Positions 16,088 through 40,595 of a DNA stretch of 42,258 bases are shown one piece after another. Source of the stretch: an uncultured Oscillospiraceae bacterium. GTDB taxonomy: Bacteria; Bacillota; Clostridia; Oscillospirales; Oscillospiraceae. Under the pieces are notes generated by a model. The model did no database searches, was not told where the DNA came from, and saw only the letters and a program-made list of their open reading frames with translations. The translations under genes and the position numbers were made by a program. The stretch is from NCBI GenBank assembly GCA_947168655.1, contig CAMVMU010000011.1:1-42258 (forward strand), in the 5' to 3' direction. How positions within the stretch are numbered: position 1 is the first letter of the stretch; every line of letters begins with the position of its first letter.

Positions 16088-16150
16088 CTGTATATAACAA
16101 GAATCACTCGATAGGGGGCTCCACCGTTGATGTGCAGAAACGAGCGGCCG

Positions 16151-16164: not shown

Positions 16165-16231
16165 TATTATAGAAATGCGAATAATCGCAAATGCACTGCA
16201 CACCGGAGGGAGAAAAAAGGACAGGACAGTA

Positions 16232-16345: not shown

Positions 16346-16855
16346 ATGGATGAGTTGATTTTGGTCAATCTTGACGATAAGGCTATCGGCAGTATGAGCA
16401 AAGAGGAGGCCCATCGGTTCGGCAGACTGCACCGCGCCTTCTCCATTTTCATTATCAGCGATGGAAAAATGCTGATCCAGAAACGCAACCGGAACAAGTA
16501 TCACTCCGGCGGACTTTGGGCGAACGCCTGCTGCTCGCACCCTCGCCGGGGAGAGACCCTTTCCGAGGCGACCGAGAGGCGCCTCAAAGAGGAACTGGGT
16601 TTCAGCTGTCCCCTGACGGAGCTGTTCTCCTTCGTCTACTATTCGCCATATCGCGAGGATCTGGCGGAATACGAGTACGACCATGTTTTTATCGGCGAGT
16701 ACAGCGGGGAAATAGATTTTGATCCAGACGAAATCGAGGAAATCAGATGGATCGGTCTTGACCAGCTCCGCGATGAAATGCTGAGATGTCCGGAGCAGTT
16801 CGCAAGCTGGTTCATGATAGCGGCTCCGGGGGTACTCAAACGGTTATCCCGCTGA
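16346..16855 (+). CDS. idi: Isopentenyl-diphosphate delta-isomerase, type I
   Basis: A 169-residue Nudix-fold enzyme interconverting IPP and DMAPP, the C5 units of isoprenoids. The catalytic cysteine is in NACCSHP (C63, matching the CGHP site of E. coli Idi) and the catalytic glutamate in EYEYDHVF (E110). Metal-ligand histidines are in AHRFGRLH. The Nudix-like helix GETLSEATERRLKEELGF is present. ATG 16346 has GGAGG nine bases upstream. Many Firmicutes carry the unrelated type II (flavin) enzyme. A type I gene heading a cluster with UbiA and a prenyl-reductase-like gene suggests pathway-dedicated isoprenoid supply. Confidence 0.93.
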   Translation: MDELILVNLDDKAIGSMSKEEAHRFGRLHRAFSIFIISDGKMLIQKRNRNKYHSGGLWANACCSHPRRGETLSEATERRLKEELGFSCPLTELFSFVYYSPYREDLAEYEYDHVFIGEYSGEIDFDPDEIEEIRWIGLDQLRDEMLRCPEQFASWFMIAAPGVLKRLSR

Positions 16856-16947
16856 GGGCTGATCAGCGGCAAATACAGCCGGAAACGGCATTTTCGGCGA
16901 TACACGGCTGCGATACGGAACAGGCTTAATGAAATGAGGAAGCAAGC

Positions 16948-18072
16948 ATGGATTTTTCGATAGTGATCCCCACTTGGAACAGGTCAAAGCTGGTAGAGGC
17001 TCTGCTGGAGTCATTATATAAAGACCGGCAGGACTACGATGGCGGTGAGACAGAAGTCCTCATCGTGGACAGCAGCGCAGGCGAGGAGAAGCAATCCATT
17101 ATGGATTCCTGCCGGAAATATGACGCCAGGTATATCGAAGGCGACGACAGTGTCCGAAAGAAGCGGAACAAGGGAATCGATCTGGCGCAGTATGAGTACA
17201 TCCTGTTCATCGACTCCGACGTCACCGTCAAGCCCGGCCTGCTGAAGAGCCATGCGGCTACTTTGAGCGAGGGAAAGACCAATCCGAAGATCACGGGCTC
17301 CTTTGGACTGACGGAGTTTGTGGGGGAAAAGAAATTCTGGTGGAAGGTCATCGAGCATACGACGTTCCTGGATTCCTTCAGCTTTGCCAAACAGATGCCG
17401 TACGTGTCGTGGACCATCGGCAATAACGTGGCGTTCCGCAGGGACGAGCTGATCCGGATCGGCAAATTCGAGGAGAACTTTCCGTTCAAGCTGGGCGGAG
17501 ACGATCTGGAGATGACCTATCGATATACCAAGTCGGGAAACCTGATCAAAACGACCCCCGAAGCGGTTACCTATCACTCCAGAGAGACGTGGAACTCGCG
17601 CAAAGCGGTCAACGACCGGGCAAAGCGCTGGGGAACCATGGAGTACTTTATCCTGAAACGGTATCCAGAGCTCGTCAACAGAAGGCTGCCCATGACGGGC
17701 GACGTTGTGGCGCTGGTCACGCTGGCGTTTGCCGCCGTTGCGCTCATCAAGCTCTCGTATATTCCGCTGCTGTTCCTGGCGGCGTGGTACCTGTTATTAT
17801 TCCTGATGATGTACGCGTATCATGTCAGAACACACGGGAAGACCAATGTTTTCTTCTGGTCTCTGGCCATGATCCAGCAGTTCAAGTACAGATTCTGGCG
17901 GGCGGTCGTCTCGCTGCGAAAGCGCGATCTCTCCTGCGCGTTCAAGGGCGCCTATTACGGGCTGTACCACATGCAGTCGGATTACCGCTACAGCGTGAAA
18001 AAGGTGTGGCGCTACTTTTATTCGATATTCGCCGTTTTAGCGGCTATGATCGTTTATATGTTTATCGTATAG
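16948..18072 (+). CDS. Family 2 glycosyltransferase with C-terminal membrane helices
   Basis: A 374-residue membrane-bound glycosyltransferase. The GT-A domain (1-240) starts with SIVIPTWNRSK, has the metal-binding DSD at 89-91, and GGDDLEMTYRYTKSG as the acceptor/base motif (around 191-205). Two or three membrane helices follow (about 250-292) plus one at the extreme C-terminus (356-373), so it works at the inner face of the membrane, probably on a lipid-linked acceptor. The next gene is a diverged paralog with the same architecture. The ribosome-binding site GAGGA is 10 bases before the ATG. Sugar specificity is not predictable. Confidence 0.88.
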   Translation: MDFSIVIPTWNRSKLVEALLESLYKDRQDYDGGETEVLIVDSSAGEEKQSIMDSCRKYDARYIEGDDSVRKKRNKGIDLAQYEYILFIDSDVTVKPGLLKSHAATLSEGKTNPKITGSFGLTEFVGEKKFWWKVIEHTTFLDSFSFAKQMPYVSWTIGNNVAFRRDELIRIGKFEENFPFKLGGDDLEMTYRYTKSGNLIKTTPEAVTYHSRETWNSRKAVNDRAKRWGTMEYFILKRYPELVNRRLPMTGDVVALVTLAFAAVALIKLSYIPLLFLAAWYLLLFLMMYAYHVRTHGKTNVFFWSLAMIQQFKYRFWRAVVSLRKRDLSCAFKGAYYGLYHMQSDYRYSVKKVWRYFYSIFAVLAAMIVYMFIV

Positions 18073-18090
18073 TCGTGAGAGGGCAAAGAG

Positions 18091-19206
18091 ATGGACAAGA
18101 TTGGGTTTAGCATTGTTGTAGCCACAAAGAGCAGGGTCAAGCTGCTGACGGAACTGATCGAGAGCATCGACGTCGCCCGGCGGAACTATCCGGGCGAGTG
18201 CGAAGTGCTGATCGTCGACGACAGCATTCCCGAAGAGAGCGCAGCGGTGCAGAAGGTCTGCGCGGAGCATGACTGCCAATACGTGTTTTTTGAAAACAGT
18301 GTGGCCGCCAAGAGAAATCACGGCGCGGCGCTGGCGAAGAACGAGGTCATTCTGTTCCTCGACTCCGACTGCATCTGCACGGAGCATATCCTCGAACGGT
18401 ATGAGGAGAGATACACCGACGATACCGTTGCCGCCGTGGCCGGCCCGCTGGAATTCGTGGGCGAGGATACCTGGTTCTGGAAAGCCATCGAAGCAACGCC
18501 GTTTTTGACCTGCTTCTATCTGCCGCGCTTCCTGCCCCGGGTGGAATGGGGCGTCACCGCCAACTTCTCCATTCGCAAACGGATTTTTGAAGAGGTCGGC
18601 GGCTTTGACGAATCCTTCAAGAGACCGGCGGGAGAGGACGTCGATCTCGGTCTGAAGGTCTGTGAAAAAGGATACGTGATCAACGCCGCGGCGGAAGCCC
18701 TGGTATATCACAGCAAAAAGACGTGGACGTCGGTAAAGGCCATGTACAGAAGGCTGCGCTTTTACGGAACGGCAGACTGCGATCTGATCCGGAAGCATCC
18801 CGCCCGGGGAGACGTGGTCCTGCCCAAGAGATGCCTGCTGTATATCATTTATTCTCTCCTGCTGGTCCTGATTGCGGTGGCCTCTCAGAAGTGGTGGGTG
18901 CTGGCCGGGATCCCGTTGGTGTTCATTGCCGAGAACGTGGCCATGTCCCTGCTGGTGAACCACCTGTCCGACGAAAAGAAGGCCACGCTGGCCCAGCAGT
19001 TCGTCGCCCAGACGCTGATCCATGACAGCGATTGGGCGTATCTGAAGCGGTGCGCAGCCTCCGGGCGGTTTTCGGACATCAGAAAACAGATGATCTATTA
19101 CCTGGGACAGTACAGAGGGATGCTCCAGATCGGATCCTACGGCACGTGGCTGCAACTGATTGCCCTGATGGGCATCGTTGTGGTGGCGCTATTCATCATT
19201 GCTTAG
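18091..19206 (+). CDS. Family 2 glycosyltransferase with C-terminal membrane helices (paralog)
   Basis: A 371-residue relative of the preceding protein. The GT-A domain begins GFSIVVATKSRVKLL, with DSD at 91-93 and the GEDVDLGLKVCEKG motif near 191. Shared features with its neighbour include FVGE(K/D)xxFWKxIE and a YHSxxTW segment before the membrane region. Membrane helices lie at about 250-290 and 352-371. It starts 18 bases after the previous stop. The two enzymes probably add successive sugars, or act as a pair, on the same membrane-bound acceptor; this is inferred from similarity and adjacency. Confidence 0.88.
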   Translation: MDKIGFSIVVATKSRVKLLTELIESIDVARRNYPGECEVLIVDDSIPEESAAVQKVCAEHDCQYVFFENSVAAKRNHGAALAKNEVILFLDSDCICTEHILERYEERYTDDTVAAVAGPLEFVGEDTWFWKAIEATPFLTCFYLPRFLPRVEWGVTANFSIRKRIFEEVGGFDESFKRPAGEDVDLGLKVCEKGYVINAAAEALVYHSKKTWTSVKAMYRRLRFYGTADCDLIRKHPARGDVVLPKRCLLYIIYSLLLVLIAVASQKWWVLAGIPLVFIAENVAMSLLVNHLSDEKKATLAQQFVAQTLIHDSDWAYLKRCAASGRFSDIRKQMIYYLGQYRGMLQIGSYGTWLQLIALMGIVVVALFIIA

Positions 19207-19238
19207 GAGATTTGAGATTATTAGGAGATTTGAGAGAT
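19203..19238 (+). repeat. Tandem 18-bp repeat containing duplicated ribosome-binding sites
   Basis: TTAGGAGATTTGAGA occurs at 19203-19217 and again at 19221-19235. Each copy carries a Shine-Dalgarno-like AGGAGA, so the PaaK-like gene has two candidate ribosome-binding sites upstream of its ATG; the first copy contains the previous gene's stop codon. Confidence 0.8.
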
Positions 19239-19239
19239 C

Positions 19240-20424
19240 ATGCATGAGAGAGAAATGAAGCAGCTGAGAGAGCTGTATGAGAGCGGGGTATTTCAAAAGC
19301 CCTTTTATTCCGACCGTCTGCACGGGATCGAGGACTTTGACAGCTATGAGTCTTTCACCAAAATCCCGTTTATGTATAAGCAGGATATCCGCAGGACAAA
19401 GCCCTTTGAGAGGACCGCGACCCCGCCTGAGGAGGCCTACGGCTTTTTCTCCAGCAGCGGAACAACGGGCAAGAAGACGTTTTATCTCTATAGCAAAACG
19501 GATAAAAAGGTCCACGAGGAATTCGTAAAAACGTATTTCACGCCTCTGGGCATCGGCCCGTCCGATATCGGCGGCGTTTTTGCGCCGGTGGACACGGGCG
19601 TCATGGCCCACACCATGATGTGGCAGTTCACCACCATGGGATGCGGATACGTCAACTGCCCCGAGCCCTCTCCCCGGAATATCATCGAATCGATCCAGGA
19701 CGTGCCGGTCACTTTGATCGCCACAAGACCCAGCGTGGTGTGCTCCATCATCGGCAACCCCGAGTATGAGCGGATCGCGCGAGAGTCAAGCGTCAGAATG
19801 ATGCTGATGGGCGGCGGATTCCTGACCAACGGCCGCAGACATCTCATCGAAAAGGCGTGGGGCGCGGAGTGCTACGGCATGTTCGGCATGAGCGAGGTAT
19901 TTGGCCCCATGGCGGGTGAATGCCGCGCCCAGGACGGGTACCATTATCTCGACAAGTATCTCATGGTGGAGATCGTGGACCCCGTGACCCATGGGCCCCT
20001 CGGCCCCGGGGAGTACGGCGTCGCCGTATATACCACCCTCTGGAACAAGGGATTCCCCCTGCTCCGGTACTGGACCGATGATTATATCGCCGTGGACACC
20101 TCCACCTGCCGGTGTGGCAGCGACCTGCCCAGACTCCGCTACAAAGGCAGGCTGGCGGACAGCCTGAACATCAACGGAAGCTACGTGTTCCCCAGCATGC
20201 TGGAGGAATGTCTGTTTACCAACGGATACTTTGGCGAATACCGTGCCGTTCAGGGCGACCGCATCCGGGTTATTCTGGAGAAGACAGACGGCTTTGAAAT
20301 GAGCGGCGAATTGAAGCAAAAGATCGACGAGCTGTTTATGAGCGACGTGGTGATCGAGTACGTGGACAGAGAGCAGCTGCTCTATGATGGACACGGGATC
20401 AGATTCACAAAAGAAGACCGGTAA
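19240..20424 (+). CDS. PaaK/CapK-like AMP-forming acyl-activating enzyme
   Basis: A 394-residue member of the phenylacetate-CoA ligase-like (ANL) family. The AMP-binding loop SSSGTTGKKT is at 71-80; later MFGMSEVFGPMAGEC and YWTDDYIAV are the A5- and A7-type motifs. It would adenylate a carboxylic acid and pass it to CoA or directly to an acceptor. Close relatives occur in capsule clusters (CapK) as well as in aromatic acid catabolism. Here it sits between glycosyltransferase genes, so an aromatic, fatty or amino-acid substituent on the final product is likely. The substrate is unknown. Confidence 0.85.
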   Translation: MHEREMKQLRELYESGVFQKPFYSDRLHGIEDFDSYESFTKIPFMYKQDIRRTKPFERTATPPEEAYGFFSSSGTTGKKTFYLYSKTDKKVHEEFVKTYFTPLGIGPSDIGGVFAPVDTGVMAHTMMWQFTTMGCGYVNCPEPSPRNIIESIQDVPVTLIATRPSVVCSIIGNPEYERIARESSVRMMLMGGGFLTNGRRHLIEKAWGAECYGMFGMSEVFGPMAGECRAQDGYHYLDKYLMVEIVDPVTHGPLGPGEYGVAVYTTLWNKGFPLLRYWTDDYIAVDTSTCRCGSDLPRLRYKGRLADSLNINGSYVFPSMLEECLFTNGYFGEYRAVQGDRIRVILEKTDGFEMSGELKQKIDELFMSDVVIEYVDREQLLYDGHGIRFTKEDR

Positions 20425-20440
20425 GGGAGCGGGGAGATCC

Positions 20441-21301
20441 ATGAATATATCTGTTGTGATTCCGGCGTACAACGAGGAAAAACGCATCGGTGCCTGCATC
20501 AAGGCGCTCCTGGAGGGCAGCGAGAAGCCCTTTGAGATTATCGTTGCCGATGGTATGTCTTCCGACAATACGGTCCAGATCGCAAGGGATCTGGGCGCCG
20601 TTGTGGTGAACAACGAAAAGCGTCACGCGGCCGGCGGACGAAACGAGGGGATCAAAGCGGCCCGGGGCGATGTGATCGCCTTTATCGACGCCGACTGTGT
20701 ACCCGACAAGGACTGGCTCAAAGAGATCCACAAGGCTTTCGAGGAGGATGACATCGACGGTCTGGGAACGTATATCGAGGCAGCCAAATCGGACAACAAG
20801 TATGAGCAGTTCTGGGGACACCTGTCGCTGCAGATCCTGATGTCCTACGGCGACGAGCCCTACTACGTGGAGCAGAAATCCCTGAACACCGCGTTTATCA
20901 CGGCAAGCTGCGCGTATAAGCGCTCTCTCCTGCAGAAGCTGAACGGCTTCAGCGACTTCTTTGCCAACAACGCCGAGGATATCGACCTCTGCTGGCGGGC
21001 GGTGGATGCCGGCGCAAAGCTGAAATACGTCCCCAGCGCGAAGATCGTTGCCCATTCTCCCGACAATCTCAAGGGGATCCGCAAAAAGAGCTTCCGCAAC
21101 GGTGTTTCCAGCTCCAAGCTGCAAAAGACGTACTCCGGCAAGAAATTCAATATTGACCGGAATCTCTACAAAGCGCTGTTTTCCAATATTGGCGGTATGT
21201 TCACCGGGCGGAAATTTGCCTCGCTGTTCGTGGTGGAGATCCTGTGCCATCTGGCGGGCAAATACTACGGAAGTATAAAGTGTGGTGTGATTAACATTTG
21301 A
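20441..21301 (+). CDS. Family 2 glycosyltransferase
   Basis: A 286-residue GT-A enzyme: ISVVIPAYNEEKRIGACI at the start, metal-binding DAD at 83-85 (FIDADCVP), and NNAEDIDLCWRAVDAGAKL in the acceptor region. Only a short hydrophobic segment occurs near the C-terminus, so it is probably peripheral rather than integral. ATG 20441 is picked because GGGGAG precedes it and the conserved strand begins there; an upstream in-frame ATG lies inside the previous gene. It differs clearly from the two membrane-anchored family 2 enzymes upstream and likely transfers a different sugar. Confidence 0.88.
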   Translation: MNISVVIPAYNEEKRIGACIKALLEGSEKPFEIIVADGMSSDNTVQIARDLGAVVVNNEKRHAAGGRNEGIKAARGDVIAFIDADCVPDKDWLKEIHKAFEEDDIDGLGTYIEAAKSDNKYEQFWGHLSLQILMSYGDEPYYVEQKSLNTAFITASCAYKRSLLQKLNGFSDFFANNAEDIDLCWRAVDAGAKLKYVPSAKIVAHSPDNLKGIRKKSFRNGVSSSKLQKTYSGKKFNIDRNLYKALFSNIGGMFTGRKFASLFVVEILCHLAGKYYGSIKCGVINI

Positions 21302-22536
21302 GAAAGATACTGTTTATCTCGGCAGGCATTTTTCCCATTCCCGCCAACAAAGGCGGCGCGGTGGAGGAGCTGATCGACAATTTTACGCAGGACAACGCCG
21401 CACACGGAAGATTTGACATCACTGTGGCCAGCTGCGCTTTCAAGGGAACGGAGATCAAGAAAAAAACCGAGGGCGTGGAGTACTTTTACGTCAAAACTCC
21501 GCTCTACATCGCGGCTGCGGATCTGGTCTACAACTTCTATATCGACAAGTTCCTGAAGGATTGGCGAAGCATGTTCCGGAGAAACCGGTTCAAGAGCAGC
21601 CACTACATCAGAACGATCGTGAAGCGGCTGGATCTGAAGGCGTATGACGCCGTCATTGTGGAGAACAACATGTCGCTTCTGAAGGAAATCTCGGACGCGC
21701 TGGGCGATGAGTATGAGCAGAAGTGCATGTACCATATGCACAGCGATCTGGTGGACAACGAGGAAATGATCCCCTATCTGGCGCGGTGCAGACGGATACT
21801 GGCGGTCAGCGACTATGTGAAACACCACCTGTACGAAACCGTTCCCGCGTTCAAAGACACGGAGATCGTAAAGGTCACCAACGGCATCCGGATCAGCCGC
21901 TACACAGACGAGGAGAAGCGTGAGATCCGCCGCAGACTGCGGGAGGCGTATCAAATTGGCGAAAACGAGACCGTTTATCTGTTTTCCGGCCGGGTGAGCC
22001 CCGAAAAAGGCGTGCTGGAAATGACCAGGGCTTTTGCGGACGCGCTGCCTGAGATGAAGCGTCCGTCCCGCCTGCTGATCGTCGGCTCCGCCACCTCGGG
22101 ATCCAACAAGGAAAACTATTATTACAAGCAGGTCCGGGAGGCCGCTGCCCGATGCCCGGAGCATATCACCCTGACCGGCTATATCAATCATGAGCGCATC
22201 ACGGAGTTCCACGCCATGGCGGATGCGCAGATCGTACCCTCCATTATGAACGACCCCGCGCCGCTGACGGTGCTGGAGGGGATGTCCATGGGGATTTTTC
22301 TCATGCTGTCCCGGGTGGGCGGGATTCCCGAATATACCCGGGCGTATGAAAACAAGCTCTTCTTTGAGCGTGACGAGAACTTTGAGCGGAATATCCGCGC
22401 GGCGTTCCTGACATTTGACCAGAAGTATGCGCCTCACGGATATACCGCAGACGCGATTTATTTTGACGATACCCTTTACTACCATGAACTTGCGGAGGCA
22501 ATAGATGCTGCGAAAAAAGCTGGAGAAACAGATTAG
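21298..22536 (+). CDS. GT4-type glycosyltransferase (TTG start)
   Basis: A 412-residue GT-B fold glycosyltransferase. The N-terminal domain opens with RKILFISAGIFPIPANKGG, the nucleotide-sugar domain has FSGRVSPEKGVLEMTRAF, and the retaining-enzyme motif is NDPAPLTVLEGMSMG. The start codon is TTG at 21298, sharing TTGA with the previous stop; the conserved N-terminus begins immediately after it, so no downstream ATG fits. The ribosome-binding site is poor, indicating translation by coupling. It overlaps the next gene by 32 bases. Confidence 0.88.
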   Translation: MRKILFISAGIFPIPANKGGAVEELIDNFTQDNAAHGRFDITVASCAFKGTEIKKKTEGVEYFYVKTPLYIAAADLVYNFYIDKFLKDWRSMFRRNRFKSSHYIRTIVKRLDLKAYDAVIVENNMSLLKEISDALGDEYEQKCMYHMHSDLVDNEEMIPYLARCRRILAVSDYVKHHLYETVPAFKDTEIVKVTNGIRISRYTDEEKREIRRRLREAYQIGENETVYLFSGRVSPEKGVLEMTRAFADALPEMKRPSRLLIVGSATSGSNKENYYYKQVREAAARCPEHITLTGYINHERITEFHAMADAQIVPSIMNDPAPLTVLEGMSMGIFLMLSRVGGIPEYTRAYENKLFFERDENFERNIRAAFLTFDQKYAPHGYTADAIYFDDTLYYHELAEAIDAAKKAGETD

Positions 22537-23434
22537 TTACCTTTTGTCTCGTGCGGGGAGGTTTTCCTATTATAGCCGGATAAGGGCGCTGGGGTTCTAT
22601 AAGGAGAGGCGGATCCGGCTGTCCGCGGCTGAAAAATGGAAGCTGATATTCGGCTCGCGGTCGGAGGTCATCTTCCCGTTTATCGATATCGATATCACCA
22701 CCTATTGCAATCTGAGGTGCAAAAGATGCGCCAAGTGCATCCCGTATTTTGAGCATAGAAAGCATTACACCGCCGAGGAGATCGAGCAAAACCTGGATCT
22801 GCTGACCAGGTATACCGACCGCATCTGCTTTGCGAACATCATCGGCGGTGAGCCCCTGCTGAATCCCGACCTGAAGAGGATCATTGCCGTATGCGCCGCC
22901 AATAAAAAGATCGAGCACCTGGAGCTGACCACCAACGCGACCATCATGCCGGACGATGATGTGCTCAAAGCCATAAAGGACGGCGCCGTCACGGTGCATA
23001 TTTCGGAATATGAGAACCTCGGCCCGCGTTATGAGGAAAGGCTGAAGGCGCTGGTGGAGAAGTTGGAGAAGTTTGAGATCCCGTATGAATACCAGTTTCA
23101 TAAGATCTGGCTGGATTTCGGCGAGATTGAAAAGCGCTGGTATACCGAAAAGGAACTGGACCGGATGCTCATCCGCTGCCCGATGAACAGCTGCACCGTA
23201 TATAACAATAAGGTGCTCTATCGCTGCGGAAAAGCGAGCTACCTTGCCCAGCACGGCATGGTGACGTCGGAAGACGACCTGATCCGGATGGAGGACATCT
23301 CCAGCAAGGAGGAGATGCGGAAGGCGGTCAAGCGTTTCTTCTCCATAAAGCACCTTCCGGCGTGTCAGTACTGTGAGGCTCATCCCAAGGGGATTCCTGC
23401 CGCAGAGCAATTGGAGAAGGACAATGATCTATGA
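22505..23434 (+). CDS. Radical SAM protein with C-terminal auxiliary-cluster-like cysteines
   Basis: A 309-residue enzyme. The cluster-binding CxxxCxxC is CNLRCKRC (C68, C72, C75), followed by the GGEPLLNPD motif that contacts SAM. C-terminal cysteines (CPMNSC, RCG, CQYC) suggest a SPASM/twitch-like second cluster. A basic N-terminal 55 residues precede the barrel. The ATG is inside the previous gene with GGAGG 8 bases upstream. It differs from the four later radical SAM proteins in sequence and lacks their NGxGEP motif. Substrate unknown; placed among glycosyltransferases, a sugar or lipid substrate is possible. Confidence 0.87.
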   Translation: MLRKKLEKQISYLLSRAGRFSYYSRIRALGFYKERRIRLSAAEKWKLIFGSRSEVIFPFIDIDITTYCNLRCKRCAKCIPYFEHRKHYTAEEIEQNLDLLTRYTDRICFANIIGGEPLLNPDLKRIIAVCAANKKIEHLELTTNATIMPDDDVLKAIKDGAVTVHISEYENLGPRYEERLKALVEKLEKFEIPYEYQFHKIWLDFGEIEKRWYTEKELDRMLIRCPMNSCTVYNNKVLYRCGKASYLAQHGMVTSEDDLIRMEDISSKEEMRKAVKRFFSIKHLPACQYCEAHPKGIPAAEQLEKDNDL

Positions 23435-24338
23435 TTATGTGATCGCAGGCGCAGGCCCTGCCGGCTGCATCTGCGCTGCGGGATTAAAGAGGAAAAACCT
23501 GTCCGTACGCATTCTGGAGAAGAACCTCCCCGGCTATCGCAAGGTCTGCGGCGACGGAATCGGCTATGCGTGCGTGCAGGCGCTGGAGGATATCGGCTTT
23601 CCCATGGACCGGCTCACTGACGCGGGCGCTGTGCAGATCAAACAGTTCATCCACTATATCGACGGGAAGAAATATACGGACATTTTGTCCGATCACAACA
23701 AACGGGCGTTCGGTATGCCGAGAGACGCCTTCGACGGCATGCTGCAGGAGTATGTCAGCGGTACCCTGGGGATTCCCATCGATTACGGCGTGAACGTCAG
23801 GGAAATCCGTACAGCGGCCGAAGGCTTTGACGTCTGCGGGATAACAGCGAAGAAGGTCGTTATCGCAGCAGGCGCAGGCGCTGCCATCAGATTCGACGGG
23901 AAAACGCTGGTGCAGCCCAGCGGGGAGAACCCTGTGGGGATCTCTGCCGCCGTGCGCGCCCCGGCGGCTGCCGAACCGTTCTTTATGTTTGACTATCAGA
24001 AGCAATATGACGGCGCCTACGGCTGGATCTTTTCTGTGGGCGACGGGGAATACAACGTGGGCCTCTGGCTGAACCATGACAAAAAACGGCTGAAGAAGCT
24101 GTTTTACCAGTTTATGGAGACCCGGGGCAGAGAGTATCTGGGCGACCACATAGAGTGGATCCGTGAACCCCGGGGCGCCCTGATGGGCATAGGGGAGAGA
24201 AGGATCAGTCCCTGCGAGGGGATCGCGCTGATCGGCGACGCGGCCAACACGTCCAACCATCGGGATGGAGAAGGCATCTCTCGGGCGATCATGGATGCGG
24301 AGAACTTTATCGGTCGATTGGAGAGGACGCGCGGATAG
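23424..24338 (+). CDS. Geranylgeranyl-reductase-family FAD-dependent oxidoreductase
   Basis: A 304-residue flavoprotein. The N-terminal dinucleotide-binding motif is DYVIAGAGPAGC (residues 4-15), and the second FAD motif is IALIGDAANTSNHRDGEGIS (about 269-288). The family includes geranylgeranyl and digeranylgeranyl-lipid reductases and also halogenase-like and PHBH-fold hydroxylases. It is shorter than typical geranylgeranyl reductases (about 390), so part of the substrate domain is missing or reduced. With idi and UbiA in the same operon, reduction of a prenyl chain is the likeliest role, but oxidation of an aromatic ring cannot be excluded. It overlaps the previous gene by 11 bases. Confidence 0.82.
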   Translation: MIYDYVIAGAGPAGCICAAGLKRKNLSVRILEKNLPGYRKVCGDGIGYACVQALEDIGFPMDRLTDAGAVQIKQFIHYIDGKKYTDILSDHNKRAFGMPRDAFDGMLQEYVSGTLGIPIDYGVNVREIRTAAEGFDVCGITAKKVVIAAGAGAAIRFDGKTLVQPSGENPVGISAAVRAPAAAEPFFMFDYQKQYDGAYGWIFSVGDGEYNVGLWLNHDKKRLKKLFYQFMETRGREYLGDHIEWIREPRGALMGIGERRISPCEGIALIGDAANTSNHRDGEGISRAIMDAENFIGRLERTRG

Positions 24339-25274: not shown

Positions 25275-25362
25275 TCATATACGCTCAGAGCAGAGAGGCC
25301 CATGGAAGAAAAAAGCTGCCTCTGCTGAGCGTGCGCTCATCAACTCAATTCGGGAAGTGGAT

Positions 25363-26358: not shown

Positions 26359-26377
26359 CGAAGAGGGGAACACAACC

Positions 26378-29054: not shown

Positions 29055-29081
29055 CGAATGGTGTTTTGAAAGGATACGCAT

Positions 29082-30155: not shown

Positions 30156-30178
30156 AGGGCAAAAAAGGAGACAGGGAC

Positions 30179-31534: not shown

Positions 31535-31535
31535 T

Positions 31536-32966: not shown

Positions 32967-32969
32967 GAT

Positions 32970-33827
32970 ATGAACACTGTCAATTGTGAGATCCTGGCGC
33001 CTGCGGGCAGGCCCACGGACATCATACCGCTGATCGAGAGCGGCGCCGATGCCATCTACGTGGGCCTCTCTGGCTACAGCGCCAGGCCCAAATCCTCCGA
33101 CTTTACCCTGGAGGAGATCGGGGAAGCCCTTGCCCGGGCCCATGAGAGGAACGTCAAACTCTTTGCCGCTGTGAACGCAAACGTTCCCGACGCAATGATC
33201 CCCCAGCTCTGCGAGAAGCTGGTGCAGCTTGACGAGATGGGCATAGACGCCCTGATCATCTCGGATTACGGCCTGATGAAGCGCGCCGCGGGCCTGATCC
33301 GGCATGCTCAGCTCCACGCCAGCACCCTCACGGGCATTTACAATTATGAGGACGTGAAAATGCTCCGGGAGATGGGCGTCAAACGGATCATCCTGTCATC
33401 GGATCTGTTCGTCGATGAGATCGCGGACATCATCGACCATGTCCCCGACCTGGACTATGAGATCGTGGCGGACGGCGGGATCTGCTTCAACTCGAACCGG
33501 CAGTGCCTGCTGCCCCATTTTGGCCAGAAGGAGTGCTACAACGTTTTCTGCCAGAAGGATTACATACTGCTCAAAGACGGAACTGCGCTGAAGCGGGCTG
33601 AGAGGATCGGCAACCGCCCCGGAAAGATCCACCATACCATGGGGATCTATCTCGGACTGGGAATCAGCTCGTTCAAGATAGAGGGAAGAACCAACGCTTT
33701 GGATTATATCCTGCAAAGGGTAAGGGACGCCGCGCAGAGCAAACGGTATTATGCAGAGCATGCCTCCGATATCCCGGGGATGATGCATTATATCCGGCGC
33801 AGCAACCGATACGGTGAGCAACGATGA
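32970..33827 (+). CDS. U32 peptidase-family protein, UbiU-like
   Basis: A 285-residue U32 protein: an EILAPAGRPTDIIPLIESGAD start and the GxDAxYVG strand, with cysteines C172, C179, C189 and C194 (ICFNSNRQCL, KECYNVFCQ) able to hold an iron-sulfur cluster. The C172/C179 spacing equals that of the first two cluster ligands I recall for E. coli UbiU (169/176). U32 proteins include tRNA and rRNA hydroxylation factors and the UbiU-UbiV pair, which hydroxylates ubiquinone precursors without oxygen. The adjacent second U32-like gene, sharing ATGA with this one, favours a heterodimer of the UbiU-UbiV kind. Confidence 0.83.
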   Translation: MNTVNCEILAPAGRPTDIIPLIESGADAIYVGLSGYSARPKSSDFTLEEIGEALARAHERNVKLFAAVNANVPDAMIPQLCEKLVQLDEMGIDALIISDYGLMKRAAGLIRHAQLHASTLTGIYNYEDVKMLREMGVKRIILSSDLFVDEIADIIDHVPDLDYEIVADGGICFNSNRQCLLPHFGQKECYNVFCQKDYILLKDGTALKRAERIGNRPGKIHHTMGIYLGLGISSFKIEGRTNALDYILQRVRDAAQSKRYYAEHASDIPGMMHYIRRSNRYGEQR

Positions 33828-34549
33828 AGCAGATATTTGTGAGCTGTGAAAGCTACGATGCCGAACGGGTGGAGCGTTTGTGCCGGGACAGTGACGTACA
33901 GGGCATCGTCCTGGGGGATCTGTTCTGCCAGAAGCGCATGTTCCCCAGAGCGGCGGCGGATCTGGTTTTGCTGATGAACCGCGTCCTCTCCTCGGAGAAG
34001 ACCGCCGTTTACCAGGCGCCGCTGTATGTGACGTGCAGAAACTGGGACGAGGTCGTGGCGATCCTCGATCTGATGGATTCCTTCGCCAAGCCGTCCTACG
34101 TCATCGTGCAGGACTTTGGAACGGCGGAGTGGATCGCCAAAACATACAAAAACCTCCGGCTGGTCTGGGGCCAGCTGGGAAGAGTGAGGGAGCTGAGGTA
34201 TTCAGAGGATTTCCTCGTTTTTCTAAACGAAAAGGGGTTCTTCGGCATGGAGACCTCAGACCCGGATCTGGCCCGGCGGCTCCGCCGTCACGCTCTGGTC
34301 CCGTTTGCCTGCAGCGCGGTTCTGCAGTATCAGACGCTGGGCAGAATATGCTATGTAAAGTATCAGCTTGGCGCTTGCGACAAGAAGGCCTGCACCACGG
34401 GGTGCTACTCCATGAGGGCCGAGGACGAACCGTTTGAGATGACGGTGGACGGCTATATGCTGGGCGAAAAATATAAAGCGATCTCTGATGAGACGTTGGA
34501 AAAGCTCTGTGAGGGCGGAGAGTGCTATCTGATAAAAAGGGGAGAGTGA
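33824..34549 (+). CDS. U32-like protein, UbiV-like partner
   Basis: A 241-residue protein starting at an ATGA overlap with the previous gene. Cysteines C35 (GDLFCQKRMF), C176 (GRICYVKY), C190 and C194 (CTTGC) match in position and in the final CxxxC the four cluster ligands I recall for UbiV (39, 180, 193, 197); C185 is additional. The N-terminal barrel strands are present, but the usual U32 signature is weak, as in UbiV. Together with the preceding protein it probably carries out an oxygen-independent hydroxylation or a related step. Substrate unknown. Confidence 0.78.
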   Translation: MKQIFVSCESYDAERVERLCRDSDVQGIVLGDLFCQKRMFPRAAADLVLLMNRVLSSEKTAVYQAPLYVTCRNWDEVVAILDLMDSFAKPSYVIVQDFGTAEWIAKTYKNLRLVWGQLGRVRELRYSEDFLVFLNEKGFFGMETSDPDLARRLRRHALVPFACSAVLQYQTLGRICYVKYQLGACDKKACTTGCYSMRAEDEPFEMTVDGYMLGEKYKAISDETLEKLCEGGECYLIKRGE

Positions 34550-34550
34550 G

Positions 34551-35999
34551 ATGAGCACAGCCGAGGAAACCAAGCGGTATGTCCGCAAATTCTACGAGGA
34601 GAATATCTGGGTCAACGATTCCCATTTGAGAAGGCTGGAGGAAGCCGTTGACCGTGACGGCCTTTCCGTGGAAGATGTGGATAGAGCCCTGGCAGAGCAC
34701 TCGCAGGCGGTGGCGTTTGCAAAGAGAATGTTCAGCGCTTCCTGCCGCGCCATGACCCGCAAGGATCTCTATTATCGATTTAACGAGACCATTTTTCCCG
34801 TGGGAAAACAAGCCGTCATTACAGTCTCCGGCATGTACAAATACCAGCGCATCAGCGGCCGGTTCAAAGTGGTCATATCGCCGTTTTACAACTACGCATA
34901 CGGCGCGCTGGAGCAGTATACGCCGTTCGTGACAGAGGTAACGGGAAAAGACAACCAGATTGAGATACTCTATTGCTTCGACCACGAGGACTTGTATGAC
35001 ATCAGCGTATTTTATCTGCTCGACGGCGAGGAGACCCTGTTTTTCAGGGGCAACGTCTATGCGCTGGAAGAGGATCTGTTCGGCAAGAAGTTTTACAAGG
35101 CGGATCTTCATATTCACTCGACCTTTTCGGACGGGTGCGAGGCGCCTGAGCTGGTGGCGGCATCCGCCAGAGAATGCGGGATGGATATCATTGCGGTGAC
35201 CGACCACAACAGCTTTTACGGCTCGCTGGCCGCTCGGGAAAGAGCAAAGGAACTCGGCCTTCATCTGACGGTCCTGACGGGAATCGAATATGCTATGGCC
35301 TATTCGCCGATGCATATTCTGTCGATCGGGGCGGAGAGAAGCGTTGACCGCAGCTTTCTCGGCAGTGATCTGGCGAAGTCGGGCAGGGTGTTGAAAATCA
35401 TCGAGGAGCATCCCGATCTCTCCTGCGACGCCGTTGCTTACGCCTGTACGCAGATCCTGCTCGACGAAATACAGAAGACAGGCGGTATCATCGTCCTGGC
35501 GCATCCTTATTGGAAGCCCATTCATGACAACGGGTCGAGGAAGGATACCCCGGAGAACCTGTTTGTTGAACTGGCCAAGGAAAAACGATTCACGGGATAT
35601 GAGCTCGTATCCGGCTCGCCCCTGGGGGAATGCCAGGTATCTCATCTGCAGGCCTCGCTGGTGCGCGAGATATCGGGCGGAGATATGAATCTGCCGCTCC
35701 TGGGCATCACCGATTCTCATCATTATACGTCCGACGATATCTGCGGAAAGCACTTCACCGTGATCATTTCGGACTCCAAGGGGGAAGAGGACGTCCTGGA
35801 GGCGCTGCGCAAAGGACTGTGCGTTCCGGTGGAGATAGAGAACGGCAAGCCGCTGTGCTACGGCAGCCACAGGCTGAACAAGCTGGCCATGTTCCTTGTG
35901 GGCAGCTATTTCCCGGAGAGAGACCGGCTGGCCCGCCTGGAGGCCATGATGGTCAAGGAAAAGTATTTATATAAAAGTACCTATACAACAGATGAGTGA
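34551..35999 (+). CDS. PHP-domain metal-dependent phosphoesterase, copy 1
   Basis: A 482-residue protein. The first 180 residues are an unrecognised alpha/beta domain ([11 protein letters not shown], then YKYQRISGRFKVV). The rest is a PHP hydrolase: DLHIHSTFSDG (185-195), TDHNSF (217-222), [26 protein letters not shown] and GITDSHHY hold the expected metal-binding His/Asp/Glu residues. PHP enzymes cleave phosphoesters or cyclic phosphates. It lies one base after the U32B stop. Its C-terminus is six residues longer than copy 2 owing to a small insertion before the stop. It likely acts on a phosphorylated intermediate of the cluster. Confidence 0.88.
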   Translation: MSTAEETKRYVRKFYEENIWVNDSHLRRLEEAVDRDGLSVEDVDRALAEHSQAVAFAKRMFSASCRAMTRKDLYYRFNETIFPVGKQAVITVSGMYKYQRISGRFKVVISPFYNYAYGALEQYTPFVTEVTGKDNQIEILYCFDHEDLYDISVFYLLDGEETLFFRGNVYALEEDLFGKKFYKADLHIHSTFSDGCEAPELVAASARECGMDIIAVTDHNSFYGSLAARERAKELGLHLTVLTGIEYAMAYSPMHILSIGAERSVDRSFLGSDLAKSGRVLKIIEEHPDLSCDAVAYACTQILLDEIQKTGGIIVLAHPYWKPIHDNGSRKDTPENLFVELAKEKRFTGYELVSGSPLGECQVSHLQASLVREISGGDMNLPLLGITDSHHYTSDDICGKHFTVIISDSKGEEDVLEALRKGLCVPVEIENGKPLCYGSHRLNKLAMFLVGSYFPERDRLARLEAMMVKEKYLYKSTYTTDE

Positions 36000-36078
36000 C
36001 AGGATGAGAAATGCCAGTATCGGGCGGAGCAGGGCTCATAGGTTCCCATGTATGCAGGGGATTCCGGAACGAAGACAG
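35992..36078 (+). pseudogene. Decayed 5' fragment of the UDP-glucuronate decarboxylase gene
   Basis: From the ATG overlapping the end of PHP copy 1, this stretch aligns with the first 89 bases of the decarboxylase gene (37538-37626): the last 51 bases align without gaps, including GCTCATAGGTTCCCAT opposite TTCATAGGCTCCCAT. Two bases are lost near 36016, shifting the frame, so the Rossmann motif GGAGFIGSH is destroyed. The frame stays open to TAA 36103-36105 (37 codons), just before PHP copy 2. It is a relic of the tandem duplication and is not expected to make a functional product. Confidence 0.85.
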
Positions 36079-36110
36079 AGAATACTATCTGATAAAAAGG
36101 AGTAAATGAG

Positions 36111-37541
36111 ATGAGCGCAGCCGAGGAAGCCAAGCGGTATGTCCGCAAATTCTACGAGGAAAATATCTGGTTACACGATCTGTATTTGAAAAGACTGGAG
36201 GACGCCATAGATCGTAAAGGACTATCCGTGGAGGATGTGCAGAGAATCATTGCAGAGCGCACGGACGCGGTGGCGTTTTCAAAAAGAATGTTCAGAACCT
36301 CCTGCCGCTCCATGACCCGAAAGGATCGGTATTATCGCCTCAGCGAGGTTGTTTTCCCCGTGGGAAAACAATCCGTGATCACGATCTCCGGCATGTACAA
36401 ATACCAGCGTCTCGGCGGTCGGTTTAAGGTGATTATCATGCCGTATTACAACTATCCGCAAAGCGCACTGGAGCGATATACACCCTTTATGACGGAAGTT
36501 ACGGCAGAAGACAACAAAATCAAGATCCCCTATGTTTTCGACCACGAGGACATGTATGAGCTCGGCGTATTATATCTGCTCGACGGCGAGGAGACGCTGC
36601 TTTTCAGAGGCTGCGTTTACGCACTGGAGGAGGATCTGTTCGGCAAGCAGTTCTACAAGGCGGATCTTCACATTCATTCCACCTATTCGGACGGGTGCGA
36701 GGCGCCTGAACTGGTGGCGGCGTCCGCCAGAGAATGCGGCATGGACATCATTGCGGTGACCGACCACAACGGCTTTGACGGTTCGCTGGTTGCAAAGGAG
36801 AAAGCAAGGGAATTCGGCCTTGATCTGACGGTCCTGACGGGGATCGAGTATTCCCTGTCCTATTCACCCATGCACATCCTGTCCATCGGGGCGGAAAGAA
36901 GCGTCGACTTCAGATTCCTCAGCTGTGATCTGGCGAAGTCCGATGAGGTGTTGAAAATCATCGAGGACCATCCCGATCTCACCTGCGACCCGCTTGCCTA
37001 CGCCTGCACGCAGGTCCTGCTTGACGAAATACAGAAGGTCGGTGGCATCGTCGTCCTGGCGCATCCTTACTGGAAGCCCGGTTATAACAACGGGTCGAGA
37101 ATGGATACCCCGGAGAACCTGTTCAGAGAATTGGCCAGGGACAAACGATTCACGGGATATGAGCTCGTATCCGGCTCGTCCCTGGGGGAATGCCAGGTTT
37201 CCAATCTGCAGGCCGCGCTGGTGCGCGAGATATCGGGCGGAGATATGAATCTGCCGCTCTTGGGTATCACCGATTCTCATCATTACACGACCGACGATAT
37301 CTGCGGAAAGCACTTCACCGTGATCATTTCGGACTCCAAGGGGGAAGAGGACGTCCTGGAGGCGCTGCGCAGGGGATTGTGCGTCCCGGTGGAGATGGAG
37401 AACGGCAAGCCCATGTGCTACGGCAGCCTCAGGCTGAGCAAGCTGGCCACGTTCCTCGTCGGCAGTTATTTCCCGGAGAGAGACCGGCTGGCCCGCCTGG
37501 AGGCCATGGCGGTCAAGGAAAAATATCTATACAATAAATGA
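36111..37541 (+). CDS. PHP-domain metal-dependent phosphoesterase, copy 2
   Basis: A 476-residue paralog of the preceding PHP protein, identical at the large majority of positions along its whole length. All metal-binding segments are kept ([45 protein letters not shown]). Differences cluster in the N-terminal 180 residues and around 265-285. The leader repeats the end of the U32B gene (CTATCTGATAAAAAGG), which supplies its ribosome-binding site. Retention of both open frames suggests both copies are used, perhaps with altered specificity in the N-terminal domain. It overlaps the decarboxylase gene by 4 bases. Confidence 0.88.
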
Positions 37542-38476
37542 GTGATATGATGAAAAGAATTCTCGTTACGGGCGGGGCCGGATTCATAGGCTCCCATCTT
37601 TGCAGAAGATTGCTGGACGAGGGCGGCAAGGTATTCTGCCTGGACAATATGTTCACCGGCACCTATGACAATATCAGGGAACTCTACGAAAACCCCAATT
37701 TCGAATTCATCAATGCCGACGTGATCCATCCCATCCAGCTGGACGTGGATTATATCTTCAACCTCGCCTGCCCCGCCAGCCCGATCCATTATCAGTACGA
37801 CCCGATCATGACCTCCAAAACCAGCTTTATGGGCGCGCTGAATATGCTGGATCTGGCCAGAAGATGCCATGCCAGGATCCTGCAGGCAAGCACCAGCGAG
37901 ATATACGGGGATCCCCAGGTCCATCCGCAGACAGAGGACTACCGGGGCAACGTGAACCCCATCGGCCCGCGTGCCTGCTACGATGAGGGAAAGCGGATCG
38001 TGGAGACGCTGTTCTTCGACTATCACCGCAGGCACCGCGTGGATATCCGCGTCATCCGCATTTTCAATACATACGGCCCCAATATGCTGGAAAACGACGG
38101 CAGAGTGGTGTCCAACTTCATTATGCAGGCTCTGCACAACCGGGATATCACCGTGTACGGCGACGGCAGCCAGACCCGGAGCTTCTGCTACGTGGATGAT
38201 CTGATCAACGGCATGATCGCCATGATGCGGAAGGACAATTTCTATGGGCCCGTCAATCTGGGCAACCCCCAGGAGATCACCATTCTGGATCTGGCCCATA
38301 TGATCATCGAAAAGACAGGGTCCCGTTCCCGTATCGTTTTCAAGGAGCTTCCCGAAGACGATCCCGTGAAGCGGAAGCCCTGCATCGATCTGGCCAAGAA
38401 GGAACTGGGATGGGCGCCGGTGATCCCCATCAGCGAGGGCCTGGACAGGACCATCCGGTATTTTCAATCCAGATAA
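37538..38476 (+). CDS. UDP-glucuronate decarboxylase (UDP-xylose synthase)-like epimerase
   Basis: A 312-residue extended short-chain dehydrogenase. The NAD-binding motif is [10 protein letters not shown] (11-20). [14 protein letters not shown] and STSEIYGDP are typical of UDP-glucuronate decarboxylase, and the catalytic Tyr-Lys pair is Y148/K152 (CYDEGKR). [10 protein letters not shown] and [14 protein letters not shown] complete the family pattern. It converts UDP-glucuronate to UDP-xylose, using the product of the UDP-glucose dehydrogenase gene 0.9 kb downstream. The start is ATG 37538, 37547 or 37550; the first shares ATGA with the PHP stop. Confidence 0.92.
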
Positions 38477-38525
38477 CCAGCAAATGAGCGTGTGACGCCG
38501 GGCCTTGCCCACGGAGGGAGCAAAC

Positions 38526-39317
38526 ATGATCATCCATCCCGTAACCGCAGTAAGGCATGCGGTCTGTCCTGCGGCATACCGCAGGATCATCACAGCAAAA
38601 TACGATGAGGCGGAGGCCGTTATCAACTCCTTCGACCAGCCCCCTCTGACGGATGAGGTGTTCGAGGAATTCGGCATCCGCACAGTGGGCGATCTGTCGT
38701 CGTACCTGAGCAGACGGGCGGAGTACGGCGGCTATATCTCCGTGCCGTTTTCCGAGCGACTGGTTCTCATCCCCTTTCACAACGATTTTATGAATCGGTG
38801 GCTGCGGTTTGACAATCCCCGGGTGACGGCTTTCTATGATCAGCTCTATGAGGAGAGAAAGTCGGAATTCGACAGCCGGCAGCAATTTGACAGGGCGCGG
38901 TTTCGCATTGAGGAGGAGTTTCAGCTGAACGCGTGGCGGATGCCTCCCCTGGACAAGCGGATGCTTTTGGCTCCCATCAGCGGATGCTGGGACAAGCCCG
39001 AGCTTCTGGCCCATTTTCTGACGCTGAAGGGCTATCCCGTCAAAAGGCTGAGCTGCAACGACGGCAACAATCTGCGGGGACACTGCTTCTGCGTCTACTA
39101 TGACGGCAAATACTGGCGTCCGGCCGGGCGCTACCCCATCAAGAACCGGGATTATAAAAAGCTGTGCCGCACGATGCTGGATATCTTCCGGCGTGTGCCT
39201 ATGTTCAAGCATCCCGACCGCTGCCGCCTGATGGAGTTCGGGGCACCGCAGACAGGTGATACCGGCAGGGAATACGTTGAGCTGATCGACAACGGCTCCG
39301 TGGTCGTGCAATCCTAA
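38526..39317 (+). CDS. Transglutaminase-like fold protein (probable)
   Basis: A 263-residue protein. The segment GCWDKPELLAHFLTLKGYPV followed by GHCFCVYYDGKYW resembles the transglutaminase-like cysteine and histidine motifs (C154 and H186). The third residue, normally an Asp in a (V/L)DP segment, is replaced by RPAGRYP, so a standard triad is not complete. Residues 1-145 are not recognised. GGAGGGAG ends 5 bases before ATG 38526. Located between the UDP-xylose and UDP-glucuronate genes, it may make or break an amide bond in the product; this is a weak inference. Confidence 0.6.
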   Translation: MIIHPVTAVRHAVCPAAYRRIITAKYDEAEAVINSFDQPPLTDEVFEEFGIRTVGDLSSYLSRRAEYGGYISVPFSERLVLIPFHNDFMNRWLRFDNPRVTAFYDQLYEERKSEFDSRQQFDRARFRIEEEFQLNAWRMPPLDKRMLLAPISGCWDKPELLAHFLTLKGYPVKRLSCNDGNNLRGHCFCVYYDGKYWRPAGRYPIKNRDYKKLCRTMLDIFRRVPMFKHPDRCRLMEFGAPQTGDTGREYVELIDNGSVVVQS

Positions 39318-39374
39318 GAGAATAACCGGCGCGGCGATTGAAGCGAAAAATAAAGAATTCTCAGGGTGAAACAG

Positions 39375-40595
39375 ATGAAAATAGCAGTAGCAGGTACAGG
39401 TTATGTGGGCCTTTCCATGGCGGTGCTTCTGGCACAGCACAACACCGTCAAGGCGGTGGATATCATCCCCGAAAAGGTGGAGCTGATCAACCAAAAAAAG
39501 TCGCCCGTTCCGGACGAATACATCGAAAAGTATCTGGCGGAGAAGGAACTGGACCTGGAGGCGACGCTCGACGCGGCGTATGCCTATCGGGACGCGGACT
39601 TTGTGGTGATTGCCGTACCCACCAATTACGACAGCGGGAAGAATTATCTGGATACCTCTGCCGTCGAGACGGTCATCGGGCTCGTGATGCGGTTTAATCC
39701 CAACGCGATCATGGTGATCAAAAGCACCATCCCGGTGGGCTTCACGGTACATATCCGCGAAAAAACAGGCAGCAATAATATCCTCTTCAGCCCTGAGTTT
39801 CTGCGGGAATCCAAGGCGCTCTATGATAATCTCTACCCGTCGCGCATTATCATCGGCACCGATCCGGCGGATGAGCGGCTGATGGAGGCGGCGCACACCT
39901 TTGCCGGTCTCCTGCAGGAGAGCGCCATCAAGGAGCCGATCGACACGCTGTTTATGGGCTTCACGGAGGCGGAAGCGGTCAAGCTGTTTGCCAATTCCTA
40001 CCTGGCGCTGCGCGTCTCTTATTTCAATGAGCTGGACACCTATGCCGAAATGAAGGGCCTGAATACGCAGGATATTATCCGGGGTGTGTGTCTCGACCCC
40101 CGCATCGGCGCGCAGTACAACAACCCGTCCTTCGGCTACGGCGGCTATTGCCTGCCCAAGGACAGCAAGCAGCTCCTCGCCAATTATGACGGGGTGCCGC
40201 AGCGTTTGATGTCCGCTATTGTTGAGAGCAACCGCACCCGCAAGGACTTCATCGCGCAGCGCGTGCTGGAGCGGGCGGGCTTTGATTCGGGGGACAGCGC
40301 GGCGGAGCGCGGCGTTACCATCGGCGTATATCGCCTTACCATGAAATCGAACTCCGCCAACTTCCGGCAGAGCTCCATTCAGGGCGTGGTAAAGCGCATC
40401 AAGGCAGAGGGCGCGGCGGTGATCATCTATGAGCCCATGCTGGAAGACGGAAGCGCCTTCTTCGGGTCCCGGGTGGTCAATGATCTGGACGAGTTCAAGC
40501 GGCAGTCCGACGTCATCATTGCCAACCGCTGCGACAGCGAGCTTGAAAGCGTGCAGGACAAGGTCTATACCCGCGATCTGTTCGGAAGAGACTGA
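39375..40595 (+). CDS. ugd: UDP-glucose 6-dehydrogenase
   Basis: A 406-residue enzyme oxidising UDP-glucose to UDP-glucuronate with two NAD+. It has the N-terminal NAD motif [36 protein letters not shown], and the catalytic cysteine C259 in [13 protein letters not shown]. The length is typical of the short bacterial form. ATG 39375 is chosen because AGGGTGA is correctly placed in front of it; a GTG at 39366 overlaps that site. It is the last gene of the cluster and supplies the decarboxylase upstream. A structured hairpin follows. Confidence 0.96.

Follow-up and report, generated by a model that had tools for sequence, protein, structure and literature searches.

A co-conserved prenyltransferase, radical SAM and glycosyltransferase gene run in Oscillospiraceae genomes: a proposed pathway to an isoprenoid-bearing glycan or glycolipid

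Gene content and organization of the run

In this study, the gene content, conservation and possible function of a gene run were investigated in a 42,258-nucleotide stretch of DNA from an uncultured Oscillospiraceae bacterium (assembly GCA_947168655.1, contig CAMVMU010000011.1), referred to here as the window, which constitutes the entire contig C11 of a host genome of 1.71 Mb in 78 contigs (76% complete). The run occupies positions 16346-40595 and comprises 22 genes, all on the + strand with intergenic distances of -32 to 111 nucleotides, and the co-directional, tightly spaced arrangement of named families claimed in a preliminary description of this DNA was thus confirmed overall. A second genome carries 17 of the 22 genes together, in keeping with the single functional unit proposed there, and we read the run, with about as much confidence as doubt, as one horizontally acquired pathway by which an anaerobe builds a glycan or glycolipid carrying an isoprenoid.

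Gene families were assigned by Pfam and NCBIfam matching of the window proteins, and the percentages in brackets denote protein identity to the copy in the second genome, RGIG3186. The run opens with idi, a type-1 isopentenyl-diphosphate isomerase of the Nudix family (16346-16855; PRK03759 138.8 bits, cut-off 127; 56%), followed by the family 2 glycosyltransferases (GTs) GT2a (16948-18072; Pfam; 77%) and GT2b (18091-19206; Pfam; 80%), a PaaK-like AMP ligase or adenylase (19240-20424; Pfam/NCBIfam; 66%), a third family 2 enzyme, GT2c (20441-21301; Pfam/NCBIfam; 79%), and a GT4 glycosyltransferase (21298-22536; Pfam). Next come a radical SAM protein, rSAM0 (22505-23434; Pfam; 57%), a geranylgeranyl-reductase-like (GGR-like) FAD protein (23424-24338), whose GG-red-SF match (E 1.5e-30, 106.9 bits) lies under the curated subfamily cut-off of 158.8, an APH-like small-molecule kinase (24339-25274; Pfam; 50%) and a UbiA-superfamily intramembrane prenyltransferase (25363-26358; PF01040; 58%). 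Three radical SAM/SPASM proteins, rSAM1 (26378-27910; 60%), rSAM2 (27900-29054; 59%) and rSAM3 (29082-30155; 68%), precede a further radical SAM protein, rSAM4 (30179-31534), which is 30-31% identical to rSAM1 and rSAM2, all four being assigned by Pfam.

The remaining part of the run begins with an AsnB-like ATP-dependent amide ligase (31536-32966; Pfam/NCBIfam; 59%). Its Pfam match covers the synthase domain only, and the protein starts MTGFML with no Cys at position 2, so that the N-terminal Cys glutaminase domain of class II AsnB amidotransferases was not found in it. Two adjacent genes follow, U32a, a U32-family, UbiU/TrhP-like protein with Cys172, 179, 189 and 194 (32970-33827; Pfam/NCBIfam; 69%), and U32b, a proposed UbiV-like partner named from its cysteine spacing only (33824-34549; 59%). 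After them lie the PHP metallohydrolase PHP1 (34551-35999; Pfam; 53%) and its tandem copy PHP2 (36111-37541; Pfam), UXS, a UDP-glucuronate decarboxylase-like protein (UDP-xylose synthase) of the NAD epimerase/dehydratase family (37538-38476; 77%), a gene that is transglutaminase-like by eye only and unmatched in Pfam up to E 1 (38526-39317), and UGD, a UDP-glucose 6-dehydrogenase (39366-40595; Pfam; 65%). At the DNA level, the UXS-like gene has matches to two plasmid genes annotated as UDP-glucuronic acid decarboxylase, and no NCBIfam model of that name is among the protein's 25 matches listed, all of which are below cut-off. With reference to the preliminary description, its list of idi, four GTs (three GT2 and one GT4), PaaK-like, five radical SAM, UbiA, U32, two PHP and UGD genes holds, the APH-like kinase having been overlooked; both PHP proteins belong to that family, and the label of phosphatase given to them is not supported by the family match.

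Promoter-like sites numbered 13 (shuffles 8.3, standard deviation 2.8) and 7 (shuffles 7.3, standard deviation 3.1). Three of those on the + strand directly precede idi (16127-16260), and another site lies in the gap ahead of the PaaK-like gene (19212-19241). Terminator-like sites numbered 16 (shuffles 12.1, standard deviation 3.4) and 21 (shuffles 10.7, standard deviation 3.8), and all 15 of those on the + strand fall inside genes.

Second copy and rarity of the cluster

A second, diverged copy of the cluster was detected in the metagenome-assembled genome Oscillospiraceae RGIG3186, from goat rectum (contig G588:C121, stretch L034). It harbors the 17 counterparts at 50-80% protein identity and in the same order, with the exception of idi, which is located between the APH kinase gene and ubiA, directly before the latter. 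The GT4, GGR-like and rSAM4 genes, one PHP copy and the gene at 38526 are missing from this cluster and are therefore regarded as accessory. None of the 11 proteins flanking the run in the window matched the examined stretches of the RGIG3186 contig (E 1e-5), so the flanks are unrelated, and conservation at such divergence and in dissimilar surroundings suggests that the gene set is under selection. The GGR-like protein was not found anywhere in the RGIG3186 genome and thus appears dispensable, and a saturated-isoprenoid membrane lipid is not the common theme; a saturated archaeal-type lipid was likewise set back.

Two local differences between the copies were also observed. PHP1 and PHP2 (34551-37541) stand in tandem against a single copy in RGIG3186, and their 80% identity makes this look like a recent duplication. 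In RGIG3186, a gene for a PARG-like microbial macrodomain protein (L034:13964-15247) lies between UXS and UGD.

The cluster seems to be rare in the genomes searched, the family, class and phylum sets being overlapping samples of larger groups. The U32a scan of genome contigs matched 57 stretches, of which three encode a relative and one (L034) carries the cluster; L035 and L036 match U32a only, and no third cluster copy was found. Searches with the single UbiA sequence matched 1 of 200 family genomes, the host itself, and 2 of 391 class genomes, the host and one other, G410. The latter match (locus L003) was taken as chance, since, of the three open reading frames (ORFs) of more than 200 amino acids listed there, the one whose length (407 amino acids) agrees with that given for the matched frame resembles an MFS-like transporter. 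A two-sequence UbiA profile matched 1 of 147 relatives of RGIG3186, namely RGIG3186 itself, and a two-sequence U32b profile matched 1 of 398 phylum genomes, the window's own. Twenty-three other class genomes contain PHP relatives, which were set aside, being about 25-35% identical with no other cluster gene in flanks of about 1.5 kb. Moreover, three scans of viral contigs gave no relative, and neither an AsnB relative in plasmids (E 1e-5) nor a UbiA relative in phages (E 0.01) was found.

UbiA prenyltransferase and its plasmid relatives

The window UbiA matches PF01040 with 49.2 bits against a gathering score of 34.2, and displays both Asp-rich motifs, NDxxDxExD and HQxxDxxND. It is the sole PF01040 gene found in the host genome (76% complete) and likewise in that of RGIG3186, and no MenA or UbiA equivalog model is among its five NCBIfam matches. 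A single PF01040 gene in either genome does not suggest menaquinone or ubiquinone prenylation, nor a MenA, and quinone synthesis was set back.

In plasmids, the window UbiA retrieved two relatives, from Nostoc and Oscillatoria, and the Nostoc UbiA domain as query retrieved two further ones, from Methylomagnum and Novosphingobium. Searching with the Methylomagnum protein gave these four again, and searching with the Novosphingobium protein added a marginal Rhodococcus match (E 0.004) to them. Together with the two cluster proteins, these six UbiA proteins have 26 invariant residues in common, including NDxxDxExD and GxRxILxHQxxDxxxD, and N61-D62-D65-D69 and D191-D195 are invariant among them. 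The nearest solved structures to the six-sequence profile are chlorophyll a synthase (E 2.9e-9), whose alignment spans both motifs, and DGGGP synthase (5.7e-7). The profile matched 6 of 299 phylum genomes; besides the window, these matches were set aside as two chlorophyll-synthase-type proteins, one of DPPR type (NCBIfam), one grouping with MenA in the tree, and L049. In the tree, which includes the references L047 and L048 and leaves out L049, Ec_CyoE and the Rhodococcus row, the six proteins group at 70/81 (59/43 in an earlier version).

Like the run, the plasmid loci place their UbiA among GT genes (4/4), with AMP-binding genes in two loci and AsnB and radical SAM genes in one; unlike it, they carry sulfotransferase (4/4), PhyH (3/4) and ABC transporter (3/4) genes, with no U32 gene noticed. 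The Nostoc locus encodes a PhyH-UbiA-TPR fusion, GTs, an AMP-binding fragment, an ABC transporter and a sulfotransferase, while in that of Oscillatoria a methyltransferase-UbiA-PhyH fusion is accompanied by GT, AMP-binding and sulfotransferase genes, and an ABC transporter is not listed. In Methylomagnum, polyprenyl synthetase, twitch radical SAM and AsnB genes lie directly before ubiA, among GT, epimerase, ABC transporter, methyltransferase and sulfotransferase genes, with PhyH about 6.6 kb downstream. The Novosphingobium UbiA is accompanied by sulfotransferase, ABC ATPase, epimerase and GT genes. As a side observation, the middle stretch of the Nostoc fusion (L042:14134-17790) resembles by eye the Novosphingobium protein L045:16864-17991, and neither gave a terpene-cyclase family match.

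GT2/GT4, PaaK-like, radical SAM, AsnB-like, UGD and UXS genes are common in surface-polysaccharide loci, and this content, together with the ABC transporter genes near three of the four plasmid relatives, would fit an ordinary locus of that kind, with UbiA, idi and the U32 pair contributing a minor modification of the polysaccharide and with export and polymerisation genes elsewhere. We consider this unlikely. No Pfam flippase, polymerase, Wzx, Wzy, ABC exporter or initiating phosphoglycosyltransferase family was found among the 22 proteins of the run, and the 17 counterparts and the PARG-like gene take up the whole RGIG3186 span, which has only three GTs. The preliminary description had used the absence of an exporter against a capsule locus; that absence is true within the run, and it is a weak argument against a surface glycan because of those same transporter genes near the plasmid relatives.

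A role for UbiA-superfamily proteins in glycan clusters is on record from Citrobacter youngae O1 and mycobacteria (PMC11127046), where they act as polyprenyl-phosphate phosphoribosyltransferases. If the window UbiA were such an enzyme, of the DPPR (decaprenyl-phosphate phosphoribosyltransferase) synthase type, and a PHP protein the 5-phosphatase, the run would, in the manner of three-component systems, produce a lipid-linked pentofuranose donor from which a surface glycan is built. The run does contain PHP hydrolases and GTs. The same source gives two Asp-rich regions to these enzymes too, so that the motif argument is not absolute (PMC11127046). The RGIG3186 UbiA also weakly matches PRK08238 (E 6e-5), a model matched by L051, a DPPR-type protein of the same phylum. 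This alternative appears distinctly improbable to us: at E 0.01 the window UbiA has no match among the DPPR models, whereas L051 scores 282 bits, L051 is without the second DxxxD that the window UbiA keeps in the alignment, and no GT-C transferase or HAD phosphatase family occurs in the run.

U32 gene pair

U32a matches PF01136 (108 bits), and in NCBIfam its best match is the TrhP model (E 1.3e-36), and it also matches the UbiU model (E 6e-26), both below cut-offs. Compared with E. coli UbiU, 0 of 300 shuffles scored as well (z 29), and C172-x6-C179 forms the CX6C cluster-type cysteine pair of a UbiU-like U32 protein. Its E164, C172 and C179 are spaced as E162, C170 and C177 of TrhP, three conserved residues singled out in PMC6599085. 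U32b overlaps U32a by 4 nucleotides and keeps C35, C176, C190 and C194 in both genomes, giving a pattern of CXnCX13CX3C against the CXnCX12CX3C of UbiV, whose cluster cysteines are given as C39, C180, C193 and C197 in PMC6747719. As no Pfam or NCBIfam family matched U32b, the UbiU/UbiV-like pair of the preliminary description is established for its U32a half.

U32 genes accompany UbiA in both anaerobe clusters (2/2). PhyH hydroxylases, found in three of the plasmid loci, are O2-dependent by family, and the four plasmid hosts are presumably aerobic or oxygenic and the two metagenome-assembled genomes presumably anaerobic, to judge from their kin. We infer that the U32 pair stands in for PhyH in the anaerobe clusters.

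The pair also brings in a third possibility, namely a glycosylated, prenylated aromatic or quinone-like redox lipid, in which UbiA would prenylate an aromatic acid and U32a and U32b would hydroxylate the ring. Such a product appears quite unlikely, as it leaves five radical SAM, one AsnB and four GT genes unexplained, and no methyltransferase or aromatic-acid-forming family was found in the run, in which two proteins are without a family. It draws on the proximity of the UbiA profile to chlorophyll synthase and on the closest functional analogues of the U32 pair, which act on prenylated rings according to PMC6747719.

Codon usage and flanking regions

AGA and AGG account for 184 of 520 Arg codons (35%) in the 22 cluster genes, compared with 667 of 4313 (15.5%) in a genome sample of 164 long ORFs taken from 15 stretches elsewhere in the host genome and 16 of 180 in eight core genes of the window. 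Twelve of the 22 genes lie above the sample's 90th percentile, whereas GT2c (9%) and UGD (4%) display no enrichment. The preliminary description was therefore right about AGA/AGG; its similar impression of ATA did not hold against the genome sample (45 of 538 Ile codons, 8.4%, versus 384 of 3663, 10.5%), the cluster exceeding only the eight window core genes (8 of 157). The AGA/AGG enrichment and the different flanks in RGIG3186 suggest transfer.

Right-flank DNA (40719-42258) was matched in 15 of 31 genus genomes including the host, mostly through the gene from 41858. In seven of the other 14 genomes, no cluster genes, window left flank or SpoVA gene adjoined this gene; the seven stretches, three of them on contigs of 7-10 kb, gave two distant ABC ATPase matches only.

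Additional features were noted outside the run. On the - strand, 9101-11029 joins a MATE-type transporter and a C-terminal histidine-kinase-like ATPase in one ORF, an unusual fusion whose ATPase domain matches HATPase_c_2 at E 9e-5, below its cut-off. On the + strand, 11228-16021 encodes a 1597-amino-acid protein with a Cthe_2159 carbohydrate-binding domain and a C-terminal dockerin, which suggests cellulosome-like machinery in the host genome. The last 55 bases of the window (42204-42258) are identical to the 55 with which contig C5 of the host genome begins, and C5 may thus continue the window contig.

Proposed pathway

Alongside the gene content, the co-conservation of 17 genes with unrelated flanks, the UbiA motifs and the plasmid relatives among GT genes, all directly observed, we propose an O2-independent route to a prenylated, xylose- or uronate-bearing glycan or glycolipid. 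The anaerobic pathway to a prenylated uronate/xylose molecule suggested in the preliminary description is compatible with all findings and in this sense partly supported; for its chemical steps, the prenylation, hydroxylation and product included, we infer from family knowledge. UGD and the decarboxylase-like enzyme would supply UDP-glucuronate and UDP-xylose, from which GT2a, GT2b and GT2c may assemble a short glycan. Idi would supply dimethylallyl diphosphate for UbiA, or balance a host-derived prenyl pool, and UbiA would prenylate a membrane-bound sugar, cyclitol or phenolic acceptor. The product or acceptor might then be hydroxylated without O2 by U32a/U32b, replacing the PhyH dioxygenases of the aerobic relatives, with the radical SAM/SPASM enzymes possibly performing further oxidations or epimerisations. 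The AsnB-like ligase may amidate a carboxylate, in the way that MoeH5 amidates the moenomycin galacturonate, while the APH kinase could add a phosphate, the PHP hydrolase remove one, and the PaaK-like enzyme activate an acyl group.

Several points weigh against the proposed pathway. No prenyl synthase lies in the run; PF00348 was found in the host genome and not in RGIG3186, and IspH in RGIG3186 and not in the incomplete host genome. Support is weak for the grouping of the two anaerobe UbiA proteins with those of the four plasmids, and the predicted UbiA structure was too poor to be used (pLDDT 44). The neighbours in Methylomagnum are only distant homologues of those in the window (AsnB 21% over 151 amino acids), no PhyH was seen at the Novosphingobium locus, an unannotated record of which some ORFs were scanned, and the PhyH/U32 swap is based on six loci. 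Shuffles of U32b scored as well against UbiV in 62 (local) and 109 (global) of 300 cases, and those of the RGIG3186 copy in 31 and 300 of 300. With hhalign, the best local match paired the U32b C35 region with the UbiV C39 region at E 0.035 and a probability of 1.5%; the E-values against UbiU and an unrelated control were 0.53 and 0.3, respectively. Since neither similarity is significant, U32b is called a proposed UbiV-like partner only. Its structure prediction (pLDDT 53) was too poor to be used, and the Foldseek search with that model, giving 0 matches at E <=0.001 and generic barrel-type enzymes as best rows, was not used.

A wider suggestion, which we offer tentatively and would sooner doubt than defend, is an undescribed class of surface glycans, spread over several phyla, to which UbiA attaches an isoprenoid that is then hydroxylated by O2-dependent PhyH in aerobes or by the O2-independent U32 pair in gut anaerobes, mirroring the two routes of ubiquinone hydroxylation. 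If true, glycans of more than one phylum would be decorated by UbiA prenyltransferases, and the role of U32 hydroxylases would extend to specialised metabolism, beyond the ubiquinone and RNA modification of the cited papers. The 17-gene core is hereby defined as a testable unit, and an exact aerobe/anaerobe swap of hydroxylases is predicted.

Comparison with known systems

The UbiU-UbiV-UbiT system of O2-independent ubiquinone hydroxylation resembles the run in its adjacent pair of U32 genes, U32a being UbiU-like. It differs in that U32b is not detectably homologous to UbiV, no UbiT was seen in the run, and neither genome shows a further UbiA-family gene. Three-component pentofuranose systems (DPPR/PPPRS) share a UbiA-superfamily protein in a glycan cluster (PMC11127046), and depart from the run in the DPPR, GT-C and HAD features given above. 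The conserved ebo operon (EboA-F), for which an isoprenoid-cyclitol pathway has been proposed, likewise has a divergent UbiA-superfamily protein and hydrolase genes, its six families being described without GT, radical SAM, AsnB or U32 genes in PMC5133447. The sugar phosphate cyclase EboD (PF01761) is matched by none of the 22 proteins, and no Ebo-named model is among the window UbiA matches, NCBIfam not having been checked for one.

In the moenomycin (moe) cluster, MoeH5 is AsnB-like and MoeK5 is a radical SAM methyltransferase. Moenomycin is an isoprenoid glycolipid in which the amidotransferase MoeH5 transfers C5N to galacturonate and MoeN5 prenylates an oligosaccharide intermediate, as stated in PMC13096315. 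With a prenyl chain, GTs and an amidated hexuronate in common, a moenomycin-like secreted phosphoglycolipid antibiotic was considered as a product of the run, and we give it hardly any credence: moenomycin relies on the prenyltransferases MoeO5 and MoeN5, whereas no PcrB/MoeO5-type Pfam family (PcrB/GGGPS fold) was found among the 22 proteins, and neither an exporter nor phosphoglycerate chemistry is evident. In line with the preliminary description, which did not recognise the cluster, it matched no characterised one in the searches made, and no described cluster of this kind was found in the open-access literature, a scope that leaves bioRxiv and most subscription papers outside and is not proof of novelty. 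Set beside these systems, the run seems to encode a dedicated pathway that has not yet been described.

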